Origin: an uncultured Oscillospiraceae bacterium
GTDB taxonomy: Bacteria > Bacillota > Clostridia > Oscillospirales > Oscillospiraceae
Direction of reading: 5' to 3'
NCBI GenBank assembly: GCA_947588605.1
Contig: CANPYK010000017.1
Location: 1 to 48,210 of the forward strand
DNA: 48,210 bases
The position numbers and the translations under genes are program-made. The notes under the pieces were generated by a model. The model did not search any database. It was not told where the DNA came from and saw nothing but the letters and a program-made list of their open reading frames with translations. This document shows positions 23,290-26,739 of this stretch, in pieces. Position 1 is the stretch's first letter, and every line of letters begins with the position of its first letter.

Positions 23290-24672
23290 TTACTTGCTCT
23301 TGATATACTCGTCGATGCTCCTGGCGGCGGTCTTGCCGGCGCCCATGGCGAGGATGACGGTGGCCGCGCCGGTGGCGGCGTCGCCGCCGCAGAAGACGCC
23401 CTCGCGGGAGGTGGCGCCGGTCTCGTCCGTGGTGATGCACCCGCGGCGGTTGGCCTCGAGGCCGGGGGTGGTGGCGCGGATGAGGGGGTTGGGGCTGGTG
23501 CCGATGGCCACGATGACCGTGTCCACCTCCATTTCAAACTCGCTCCCCTCGATGGGCACCGGCCGGCGGCGGCCGGAGGCGTCGGGCTCGCCCAGCTCCA
23601 TGCGGATGACCCTCATGCCCCGGACTCTCCCCTGCTCGTCGCCCAAGATCTCCGTGGGGTTGCAGAGAAGGTCGAACGCAATGCCCTCCTCCTTGGCGTG
23701 GTGGACCTCCTCGGCCCGGGCGGGCAGCTCGGCCTCGCTGCGGCGGTAGACGATGTGGACGTCCGCGCCAAGGCGCTTGGCGCACCGGGCGGCGTCCATG
23801 GCCACGTTGCCGCCGCCCAGGACCGCGACTTTACGGCTCACAAAGATAGGCGTGGGGCTGTCGGGCTTGTAGGCTTTCATAAGGTTGATGCGCGTCAGGT
23901 ACTCATTGGCGGAGAAGACGCCGACCAGGCTCTCCCCGGGGATCTTCATAAACTGGGGAAGTCCCGCGCCGGAGCCGATGAAGACGGCCTCGTAGCCTGT
24001 ATCGAAAAGCTCGTCGACGCTCAGCGTCTTGCCGATAACGGTGTTGAGCTCAAGCTCCACGCCCAGGGCCCGGAGCTTGCCCACCTCCTTCTCCACGATG
24101 GACTTGGGCAGACGAAATTCCGGGATGCCGTAGCTCAGCACGCCGCCGGCCACGTGGAACGCCTCGAAAACCGTGACGGCATAGCCCATGCGGGCCAGCT
24201 CCCCGGCGCAGGTGAGGCCGGCGGGACCGGAACCCACCACGGCGACCTTGTGGCCGTTGGCGGGGGCCTTATCCGTGTTGGCGACGTTATGCTCCAGCGC
24301 CCAGTCGGCGACAAAGCGCTCCAGGCGCCCGATGCCCACGCTCTCGCCCTTGATGCCCCGGACGCAGCGCCCCTCGCACTGGCTCTCCTGCGGGCAGACG
24401 CGCCCGCAGACGGCGGGCAGGGCGTTGGCACGGGAGAGGGCCTTGTACGCGCCCTCCAGGTCCCCCTCCTGGATGTGTCCGATGAACTCCGGGATGGGCA
24501 CGTTCACCGGGCACCCCTCCACGCACCGGGGGTTCTTGCACCGCAGACACCGGTGGGATTCCTTTTCCGCAAGCTCCGGGGTGTAGCCCAAAGCCACCTC
24601 CAGGAAGTTGCGGCTGCGCACCTCCGGGGCCTGTTCGGGCATTTTCGTCTTCTCCAGGGTCATGTCAGGCAT
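23290..24672 (-). CDS. nfnB: NfnB / NADPH-dependent glutamate synthase small-subunit type flavoprotein
   Basis: A 460-residue protein from ATG 24672, with GGAGGGG upstream, overlapping the end of nfnA by 8 nt. Two [4Fe-4S] clusters are formed by Cys42, 45, 50, 54 and Cys89, 93, 99, 103. The FAD fold has VAVVGSGPAGLTCAGELA, and the NADPH fold has VAVLGGGNVAMDAAR. The C-terminus has GVFCGGDAATGAATV. Because its partner is an NfnA-type subunit, the pair is most likely the electron-bifurcating NADH-dependent reduced ferredoxin:NADP+ oxidoreductase. A glutamate synthase beta-subunit role cannot be fully excluded, since it is often annotated gltA. Confidence 0.88.
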   Translation of the reverse strand: MPDMTLEKTKMPEQAPEVRSRNFLEVALGYTPELAEKESHRCLRCKNPRCVEGCPVNVPIPEFIGHIQEGDLEGAYKALSRANALPAVCGRVCPQESQCEGRCVRGIKGESVGIGRLERFVADWALEHNVANTDKAPANGHKVAVVGSGPAGLTCAGELARMGYAVTVFEAFHVAGGVLSYGIPEFRLPKSIVEKEVGKLRALGVELELNTVIGKTLSVDELFDTGYEAVFIGSGAGLPQFMKIPGESLVGVFSANEYLTRINLMKAYKPDSPTPIFVSRKVAVLGGGNVAMDAARCAKRLGADVHIVYRRSEAELPARAEEVHHAKEEGIAFDLLCNPTEILGDEQGRVRGMRVIRMELGEPDASGRRRPVPIEGSEFEMEVDTVIVAIGTSPNPLIRATTPGLEANRRGCITTDETGATSREGVFCGGDAATGAATVILAMGAGKTAARSIDEYIKSK

Positions 24673-25513
24673 TGCCCATCCCCTCCAATCTGCAAGCGTG
24701 TCCGGCTTTCCGGCGCTGTTCAAATTCCTTATACGTAGCGGCGCGGGCGATGGTCTCGTCAAAGTCGATGAGGTGCCCGTCGAAGTCCGGCCCGTCCACG
24801 CAGGCAAACTTCACCTCGCCCCCCACGGTCACCCGGCAGCAGCCGCACATACCGGTGCCGTCGATCATGATGGGATTCATGCTGACGGTGGTGGGGATGT
24901 CAAAGCGCTTCGTGACCCGGCAGACGAATTTCATCATCACCAGCGGCCCAATGGCGTAGACCCGGTCGTACCGCTCCCCCGCCGTCAAAAGCTCCTCCAG
25001 CTTGCCGGTGGTGAAGCCGTGATAGCCGTAGGACCCGTCGTCGGTGCAGATATAAAGGTCGTCGCAGGCAGCTCTCATCTCGTCCTCCAGAATGACGATG
25101 TCGCGTGTCCGGAACCCGCCGATGAGGTCCACCTTCGCCCCCGCGTCGTGGAGGGCCTTGGCCACGGGAAGCGCGATGGCGCACCCCAATCCGCCACCCA
25201 CCACGGCGGCGCGCTTCACACCCTCAATGGGCGTGGGCTCGCCCAGCGGGCCCACAAAATCCGTAAGGCACTCCCCTTCCGAAAGCTCGTCCAGCGTCAT
25301 GGTGGAGTCCCCCACCTTCTGGAAGACCACGGTGACGAGCTCCCCGTCCGTGGAGCTGACAGTCAGGGGGATGCGCTCCCCGTCGGCGCAGGCGCGCAAA
25401 ATAATGAACTGCCCCGCCCGTGCCTTTTTGGCCACAAGCGGTGCGCAGACCGAGATGCTGGAAATATCGGGCGTCAGCACCTTTTTCCGAACGATCTCAT
25501 ATTTTTCCGGCAT
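24665..25513 (-). CDS. nfnA: NfnA / dihydroorotate-dehydrogenase-type FAD-[2Fe-2S] electron transfer subunit
   Basis: A 282-residue protein from ATG 25513 behind AGGAGAGG. The N-terminal FAD domain (1-95) is followed by an NAD-binding domain with VVGGGLGCAIALP (104-116). The C-terminal [2Fe-2S] site DGTGMCGCCRVT uses Asp219, Cys223, Cys226 and Cys238, typical of NfnA and PyrK-like subunits. With NfnB it balances NADH, NADPH and ferredoxin pools in anaerobes. Confidence 0.88.
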   Translation of the reverse strand: MPEKYEIVRKKVLTPDISSISVCAPLVAKKARAGQFIILRACADGERIPLTVSSTDGELVTVVFQKVGDSTMTLDELSEGECLTDFVGPLGEPTPIEGVKRAAVVGGGLGCAIALPVAKALHDAGAKVDLIGGFRTRDIVILEDEMRAACDDLYICTDDGSYGYHGFTTGKLEELLTAGERYDRVYAIGPLVMMKFVCRVTKRFDIPTTVSMNPIMIDGTGMCGCCRVTVGGEVKFACVDGPDFDGHLIDFDETIARAATYKEFEQRRKAGHACRLEGMGNA

Positions 25514-25564
25514 GAAAATCACCTCTCCTAATAGATTATGCGATTTTTTGCGTATAAACCATCA

Positions 25565-26254
25565 TCAGGGCGCGTAAAGAAAACGTTTGTTCCACACCGC
25601 GTACTTTCCGTCTTCATCGATGATCCCGACCACCATATCGCCCACGTCCTGCCCGACCTCTATTCTCACCGCTACCTCCAGGACAGGCTTACCAAGCTCA
25701 TTCTCCCCGGCATAGACCATCCCGCAAAGCTCCATGAGACTGCCGTCGCGGACCCACTGGACCGTCACCTCATGCCTCCAGGAGCGGTAGTCCGCCGGGA
25801 TGTCCTCCTCGCTTATGTCCCGCAGGTCCATGTCGTCATGCCGGTAAGCCGGTTCCCCGTAGGCGTCCGTAAAGTTGTCCACGAGGCCGTAAAAATAGTC
25901 CATGGCCTCATCATACCGCATGACATCGGCCTGGTTTTGATGGAAATACATATGGTGCCTGCCCAGGATATCGATGCTCGCGACCATGCTTACGGAGCAA
26001 ACCAGGTCGTCGTTGGCATACCCGTATCCGAAGTCGTAGGTGGAGCCGAGGACTTTGGCAAAATTCCCGCCATACTCTCTCGTCCCCGACTGCCTCGTAA
26101 ATTCATCCTCGCCGATCCCGAAGGGGGCGGAGGGAAAATAGAATCTTCCGTCCGCGTCAAGGAAGGACTCCGGCCCTTGAATGTCCCGTTCCACCCTGGA
26201 GGACCGGGAGACCGGAAAGCTTATGCCCCTGGTGAGGATCACAAGGACGAGCAC
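25565..26254 (-). CDS. membrane-anchored protein of unknown function, 5' end cut off by a MITE
   Basis: From GTG 26254 the frame gives 229 residues with no recognised domain: an extracytoplasmic-looking chain with many aromatic and acidic residues. The frame stays open upstream to 26323, adding KAQRICKGILRW and a strong membrane helix (TFLALLAAVAVLVLVIL), but it has no ATG. The repeat element at 26322-26481 lies exactly there. Removing it with one TTA copy joins the frame to ATG 26498, giving MWFTP-KAQRI and 256 residues. As it stands, translation from 26498 stops after nine codons. The gene is thus probably inactive, or made from an internal start without a full membrane anchor. Confidence 0.6.
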   Translation of the reverse strand: MLVLVILTRGISFPVSRSSRVERDIQGPESFLDADGRFYFPSAPFGIGEDEFTRQSGTREYGGNFAKVLGSTYDFGYGYANDDLVCSVSMVASIDILGRHHMYFHQNQADVMRYDEAMDYFYGLVDNFTDAYGEPAYRHDDMDLRDISEEDIPADYRSWRHEVTVQWVRDGSLMELCGMVYAGENELGKPVLEVAVRIEVGQDVGDMVVGIIDEDGKYAVWNKRFLYAP

Positions 26255-26318
26255 CGCAACGGCGGCAAGCAGCGCCAGAAAGGTCCAGCGCAGGATGCCC
26301 TTGCAGATCCTCTGCGCC

Positions 26319-26484
26319 TTATACTAATATCTATTTAAAAGGAGACACCGAGCGGCGTGGATTTTTCGCGTCAGGCAAGGAAGACGCCGCAGGGAATACC
26401 CTTTGGTATTTCCAAGGCGGCTGACGCGGCATGACGCGAAAAAGACCGGCGCGAATGACTTCTTTTAATTAGATATTAGTATTA
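26319..26484. mobile_element. 160-bp MITE-like element with TTA target duplications
   Basis: The core (26322-26481) begins TACTAATATCTA and ends with its exact reverse complement apart from the twelfth base. TTA flanks it on both sides (26319-26321 and 26482-26484). Terminal inverted repeats match at 21 of 23 positions. Inner arms TTTTTCGCGTCA also pair, and the centre AATACC-CTTT-GGTATT folds back, so almost the whole element is one long imperfect hairpin. It encodes nothing and must depend on a transposase elsewhere. It splits the gene at 25565-26498. Confidence 0.8.
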
Positions 26485-26498
26485 GGTGTAAACCACAT
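26485..26498 (-). other. displaced 5' fragment (first codons) of the interrupted gene
   Basis: On the minus strand ATG-TGG-TTT-ACA-CC precedes the element, with AAGGGGTGGG as ribosome binding site about 5 nt upstream of the ATG. It joins in frame to the coding part at 26320 when the element and one TTA are removed. Confidence 0.6.
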
Positions 26499-26520
26499 AA
26501 GACCCACCCCTTAAAATTCA

Positions 26521-26553: not shown

Positions 26554-26739
26554 TTAATAATAGCGCTTATTCTTGTTCTTCCTGGCCGCCTCGGACTTCT
26601 TGCGGCGTCTGACGGAAGGACTCTGGTAGTACTCCTTTTTCCGGAGGTCGGCGAGGACGCCCGCCTTGGCGCAGTTACGCTTGAATCTCTTCAGCGCGCT
26701 GTCCAGAGACTCGTTTTCCTTCACATGGACTTCTGACAT
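26554..26739 (-). CDS. rpsU: 30S ribosomal protein S21
   Basis: A 61-residue basic protein, [19 protein letters not shown], with the family's [22 protein letters not shown] tail. Length and sequence are standard for bacterial S21, a small-subunit protein near the mRNA exit that helps initiation. AGGGAGGGG lies 6 nt before ATG. It has its own near-perfect promoter and a terminator, so it is a single-gene unit after leuS. Confidence 0.97.

Follow-up and report, generated by a model that had tools for sequence, protein, structure and literature searches.

We found that a small gene of an uncultured Oscillospiraceae bacterium is interrupted within its first codons by a 160-bp MITE, in the stretch of 48,210 nucleotides that we analysed (the window). 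We put a probability of about 0.86 on the reading that this is a non-autonomous element of IS630 type, moved into a TNA target by an IS630-family transposase supplied in trans, and that its arrival cut off the native start of the gene. The case is carried by the element and its target-site duplication, by empty alleles in relatives, by a multi-copy family, and by ends shared with a transposon of the IS630 family whose own duplications are TNA as well. With natural alleles from before and after the insertion, the locus is a clean example, from an uncultured gut lineage, of a gene cut off by a MITE, and the genus-wide set of insertions makes both target choice and timing readable. The features of the site are collected in Table 1.

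Table 1. Coordinates in the window of the MITE, its target-site duplication and the genes around it
Feature	Position	Strand	Remarks
MITE (fold-back element), 160 bp	26322..26481	.	begins TACTAATATCT, ends AGATATTAGTA
Target-site duplication TTA, left copy	26319..26321	.	one TTA only in the unoccupied site of L039
Target-site duplication TTA, right copy	26482..26484	.	window sequence
First five codons (MWFTP) of the interrupted gene	26484..26498	-	ATG 26498-26496; L039 and L040 start alike
Purine-rich ribosome-binding-like stretch AAGGGGTGGG, 5' of the ATG	26503..26512	-	L039 and L040 similar
Remainder of the interrupted gene, 251 codons and stop, open	25565..26320	-	first GTG at 26254
Upstream gene, small ribosomal protein S21-like	26554..26739	-	conserved beside the gene in L039, L041 and L042
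Downstream gene, ferredoxin-NADP reductase subunit-like	24665..25522	-	L039 and L042 keep its start behind the gene

The first-pass annotation had claimed a fold-back element flanked by TTA on each side, and both its borders and the duplication can be read in the sequence. The inverted arms (26317-26347 and 26456-26486) are 31 nt long and 87% complementary. The fold-back of the element is far outside chance expectation, whether folded as RNA (-66.5 kcal/mol, z -8.6) or as DNA (z -8.8), with 0 of 200 shuffles equalling it in either case. The element is a MITE: it is too short for a transposase (160 bp, in a family of 81-321 bp), has terminal inverted repeats and a fold-back structure, is accompanied by target-site duplications (34 of 41 elements, with empty sites at five of seven loci), occurs in many copies at separate sites (at least 40 in its own genome, G000), and has ends in common with an autonomous transposon (21-25 of 26 bases at the right end). 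The family is new and of a kind already known; its status as a MITE family is well documented. An Rfam scan of the window at the gathering threshold returned zero families, and a lax threshold gave seven matches in four loci, every one under its gathering score.

We searched 34 genomes of the genus (the element's own and 33 others) for orthologues of the interrupted gene, using its 229-aa body as the query, and found the gene in three: its own genome, G021 (96%) and G016 (92%), the two relatives being the uncultured Oscillospiraceae MAGs Lapin-020 bin26 and Lapin-021 bin36. The 160 bp do not stand at this place in all relatives; the orthologous locus is empty in both gene-bearing ones, where the DNA at the site reads ATGTGGTTTACGCCTAAGGCGCAG in G021 and ATGTGGTTTACACCCAAGGCGCAG in G016. 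Both empty alleles keep one uninterrupted frame from the same ATG, beginning MWFTPKAQRI. The G021 protein (L039, MWFTPKAQRIFKG...) has 253 aa, with a C-terminus three residues earlier, and the G016 protein (L040, MWFTPKAQRICKGILRW... / MWFTPKAQRICKG...) has 256 aa. The 256-residue product that had been reconstructed by removing the element and one TTA therefore matches a real allele, with the length seen in G016. On the gene strand, the G021 site has a single TAA (TTA on the plus strand) against two in the window, and G016 has CAA at the same position and no TNA target. Flanking sequence is retained on both sides of the locus, in the same order in both relatives. This order bears on the possibility of a misassembly at a repeat, with the gene intact in the organism: short-read contigs often break at such repeats, and several contigs of this genome terminate in MITE or IS sequence. 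Against it, besides the conserved flanks, stands the exact TTA duplication, which a false join is not expected to make, and we consider such an artefact scarcely credible.

The consequences for the gene follow from the frame. From ATG 26498 the minus strand reads MWFTPNTNI and then stops, exactly the arrest after nine codons that the first-pass annotation had described, with only 17 bases of the gene, from the ATG to TAA, ahead of the element. The insertion comprises 163 added bases with an in-frame stop codon at each element end, so the native start no longer gives rise to the native protein, and the gene is probably silent. What remains open in the window is a 229-aa ORF starting at GTG 26254, the first ATG, GTG or TTG downstream. 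This codon is residue 28 of the intact protein and falls within a predicted N-terminal helix (residues 5-36); the product of the gene is probably membrane-anchored. Structure prediction on three sequences gave a mean pLDDT of 45, with only helix 5-36 partly reaching 70 or more. The 229-aa body had no match in Pfam, and the intact orthologue had none in NCBIfam and nothing of note among PDB sequences (best E 0.38). The interrupted gene (25565-26498) is thus an orphan with no family match, present in three of the 34 genus genomes. From their sequences, we take the upstream neighbour to be rpsU, and the downstream gene presumably encodes a subunit like that of ferredoxin-NADP reductase.

The body of the gene shows no visible decay. 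Its dN/dS is 0.17 against G021 and 0.22 against G016, and the changes specific to the window are 9 synonymous and 2 non-synonymous, small counts that would fit a recent insertion. An undecayed downstream frame, together with the very stable RNA fold, could also be expected of an element retained as a regulatory hairpin that damps translation or downstream genes, rather than of a recent disabling insertion. We regard this as very unlikely, given that the element is missing from the site in both relatives and that stops stand in frame at both of its ends; a scan of the insertion found 0 promoter-like sites and 1 terminator-like site against 1.5 expected by shuffling. On the preferred reading of a recent disabling insertion, a stable hairpin so early in the transcript might still affect neighbouring genes.

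We then surveyed the element beyond this site. Its own genome holds 28 full or nearly full-length copies, one further full-length copy at 84%, and 11 longer copies that match as positions 1-106 plus a second piece. The end motif TACTAATATCTA, allowing at most one mismatch, occurs at 93 sites versus 3 for a reversed control. The copies fall into size classes of 81, 143, 159/160, 259, 280 and 318-321 bp, with nested palindromes on common ends. A 156-bp inner module of the long elements (L055 445-600) occurs 10 times in full in the genome, and a segment of it (about 44-108) at 28 further places; with these copies elsewhere, the long class may be composite. Beside the element at L004 (G000:C11 near 46.4 kb) lies a separate repeat, intergenic and about 190 bp long, with matches in 10 of 10 genus genomes searched, among the matches listed, and multicopy in several; the MITE is inserted within or beside one copy of it. 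At another locus, a 6S RNA match (L052 2735-2933) scoring 41.6 bits against a gathering score of 46.4 begins 25 bases beyond a 280-bp family element.

We detected the element in 18 of 40 genomes searched (its own included), all 18 within the genus (18 of 25) and none among 15 genomes of other genera in the order. A draw of 200 genomes of the taxonomic family gave 11 matches, four in the genus and seven in other genera; among the seven, only G095 had a full-length copy (79%), the other six having short internal matches. The element was not found in phages or plasmids, nor in an exact-pattern search of viral contigs.

The flanks of these copies define the target. We read 41 elements. Left aside were L059 and L060, L024 (which lies at a contig edge), L029 and L030 (duplicates of the elements in L052), L062 (where the end motif is missing even with one mismatch allowed) and isolated ends at the edges of contigs. 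Identical 3-bp repeats flank the 34 noted above and are all TNA (17 TAA, 11 TTA and 6 TGA); the other seven have no matching TNA flanks. The search for further copies that had been proposed therefore yielded them with 3-bp duplications; the TTA target claimed for the element holds at the window site, while the target of the family is the broader TNA.

We also queried seven insertion sites for empty alleles, the window site across the genus and six others in ten genomes, and found five (the window site, L005, L007, L018 and L021) empty in at least one relative. In G021 the empty sites of L007 and L018 consist of one TTA and one TGA, respectively; an element-free alignment of L018 was also obtained in G005 (80%), where the target is altered. 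L021 is empty with a single TTA in G016. L005 is empty in G016 and G021 but less cleanly, with two extra bases in G016 and sequence that diverges just beyond the TAA in G021. At L004 a different repeat confounded the test, and for L012 the match in G021 covered one side only, with the element absent there. At L021, G021 is occupied by a family element 8 bases off with its own TTA repeats (L165 295-453), so this place was either hit twice or rearranged. Since the empty site of L018 is TGA, its duplication cannot be TA, and a TA duplication is ruled out for the family by this allele and by the TGA sites. Empty sites at five of the seven loci and the undecayed frame make the insertion look recent, in agreement with the age given by the first-pass annotation.

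Contig C27 of the MITE's own genome carries 131 bp that form the right end of a transposon present whole in G016 (L064 530-1631), where TTA stands on both sides. This transposon has an HTH ORF (orfA) and an overlapping DDE_3 ORF (orfB), with a stop codon TAG inside the terminal repeat. OrfB scores 136.6 bits with NF033545 transpos_IS630 (cut-off 100) and matches PF13358 DDE_3; orfA alone scores 60.3 bits, below the NF033545 cut-off. A second, diverged transposon in G021 (L094 924-2037) has TGA on both sides. The right 26 bp of L064 share 21-25 bases with 27 MITE copies (25 in three of them); for the window copy, one end shares 23 and the other 22. Between the MITE ends and the left 26 bp the agreement is lower, at 19-22. 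From these likenesses, this transposon is the probable autonomous partner of the MITE, and a transposon with similar termini, as had been sought, was found in relatives, of the IS630 family and with TNA duplicated. Its orfB is an IS630-type DDE transposase, so the description that the partner works like IS630 stands; strict membership by the target rule of a 2-bp TA duplication fails, L094 being flanked by TGA and the empty L018 site being TGA.

The own assembly retains right ends only, of 131 bp (C27) and 127 bp (C38), the latter halting at the contig edge and the former continuing into other sequence, and we found no intact IS630 transposase of the partner type in it. At E<=1e-40 the transposase occurs in three of the 34 genus genomes, its own not among them, against 18 of 25 for the MITE; the partner is therefore missing, unassembled or different in most hosts. 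A family search of ten genomes placed IS630 above the cut-off in two, G016 and G021, and the same search in controls gave a signal in eight of 14 genomes, above the cut-off in two. The host genome has a weak match on C18 (35.9 bits, below the cut-off), and an active transposon copy, if there is one here, may lie in an assembly gap. What looks like the start of an IS5-like transposase on C27 was rejected as an unrelated piece beyond the 131-bp right end. At L048 (115-936), a gene that we take from its sequence to be an erm-like rRNA methyltransferase adjoins a right end of IS630 type at the edge of a contig.

Two other sources of transposase were weighed. An IS1182-like transposon, the first candidate seen, adjoins ends of the MITE on contigs C16 and C40 of the same genome, with its transposase directly inside the element end at L043 (779-2206; NF033551 239 bits, below the cut-off of 270, and DDE_Tnp_1_6 above its cut-off) and a similar reading frame inside the end at L045 (1-441). 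However, the length of MITE end that precedes it differs, about 28 bp at one place versus about 72 bp at the second, and at both it begins with an end of its own, GGGCTGTGAAAAAAGAGCAG. These unequal depths and separate ends make it look like an insertion into MITE copies; we rejected it on these grounds and give very little credence to its being the autonomous partner. It is also improbable that a transposase of the IS5 family (IS1031 group) moves the MITE and that the likeness to IS630 is one of ends alone. Members of that group are reported, in passages of PMC12016507, to prefer TNA and to leave a 3-bp repeat, but no IS5-type transposon with TACTAAT ends appeared among the end-motif sites and loci read, and both transposons that have such ends and can be read on either side belong to the IS630 family, with TTA and TGA duplicated.

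Mobilisation by an IS630-type transposase, the reading we prefer, can be pictured from work on ISY100, whose transposase is described in passages of PMC2170065 as sufficient by itself to excise and insert the element. Its cuts fall at the 3' ends and, on the 5' side, two bases within the element, and TA is duplicated. By analogy, a two-ORF IS630-family DDE transposase acting in trans would recognise the element by its TACTAAT... ends, excise it from another place and join it to a 3-bp TNA, here TTA. Repair of the gaps left by a three-base stagger would duplicate the TNA target. The element landed in the first codons of the small gene, where translation from the native start now ends after nine codons. 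The 'precise excision' of the first-pass annotation holds as a description of the sequence, in that the frame is restored; excision, whether led by a transposase or by slippage, was not observed in the alleles compared. Mariner-type cleavage normally leaves a footprint, and since excision by the transposase is expected to leave extra bases, slippage between the repeats would be the likelier route back to a single, clean TTA.

We next asked how general the TNA target is, scanning 13 two-ORF IS630-type elements: L064, L094 and 11 from plasmids of other phyla, some of these annotated as a single joined gene (L162 lay outside the scan). Identical TNA repeats outside symmetric ends were readable in eight of the 13 (TTA in L064 and L154; TGA in L094, L159 and L161; TAA in L156 and L160; TCA in L158), and the TGA and TCA repeats among them contain no TA. 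The five others comprise L164 (TAA versus TTA), L155, L157 and L163, with no clear reading, and L153, readable with TA or a 4-bp repeat. For L159, L160 and L161 an alternative register scores slightly better for the ends and has no repeat, and for several scanned elements 2-bp readings exist one or two bases further in. These readings, made from occupied sites, are suggestive only. A pattern search gave a D-to-E spacing of 31 for 11 loci and of 32 for L159. It picked up an earlier D in L154, L157 and L163, where a count by eye from the DxAGWH motif yields 31. The pattern had no match in L153, L155, L138 and L139. We see even odds that two-ORF IS630-type transposases with a D-E spacing of about 31 residues form a distinct group, with a 3-bp stagger at TNA in place of a 2-bp stagger at TA, that was the source of the MITE burst. 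Such a TNA-cutting group may span Bacillota, Pseudomonadota, Cyanobacteriota and Deinococcota.

For IS630, whose canonical target is TA, duplication of a 3-bp TNA is unusual, and passages of PMC2170065 and PMC7325037 tie the family to TA. The finding of such a duplication together with an IS630-type transposase is a lead, TA being the target by which the IS630/Tc1/mariner group is generally characterised. In the one open-access library searched, we found no report of an IS630 with a 3-bp TNA target, a TNA-duplicating MITE or an Oscillospiraceae MITE. ISY100 and canonical IS630 resemble the partner in transposase family, with HTH domains and DDE_3, and differ in target: ISY100 is described as inserting almost only at TA and duplicating it (PMC2170065, in part), compared with a 3-bp TNA here. 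The IS1031 group of IS5 shows the reverse, with a 3-bp TNA target reported in passages of PMC12016507, whereas the partner transposase here is of IS630 type. Among MITEs, Nezha of cyanobacteria is likewise tied to a resident IS, an ISNpu3-like element being its proposed partner (PMC3049150, compared by description). A two-ORF IS630-type copy in Trichormus variabilis ATCC 29413 (L156), readable with TAA on both sides, belongs, at a guess, with Nezha. RUP of Streptococcus pneumoniae (107 bp, proposed partner IS630-Spn1) is another short multi-copy MITE for which IS630-family mobilisation has been proposed and gene-disrupting insertions reported, in passages of PMC2229807 and PMC3049150; by its description it uses TA-containing targets, compared with the TNA duplication of the family described here.
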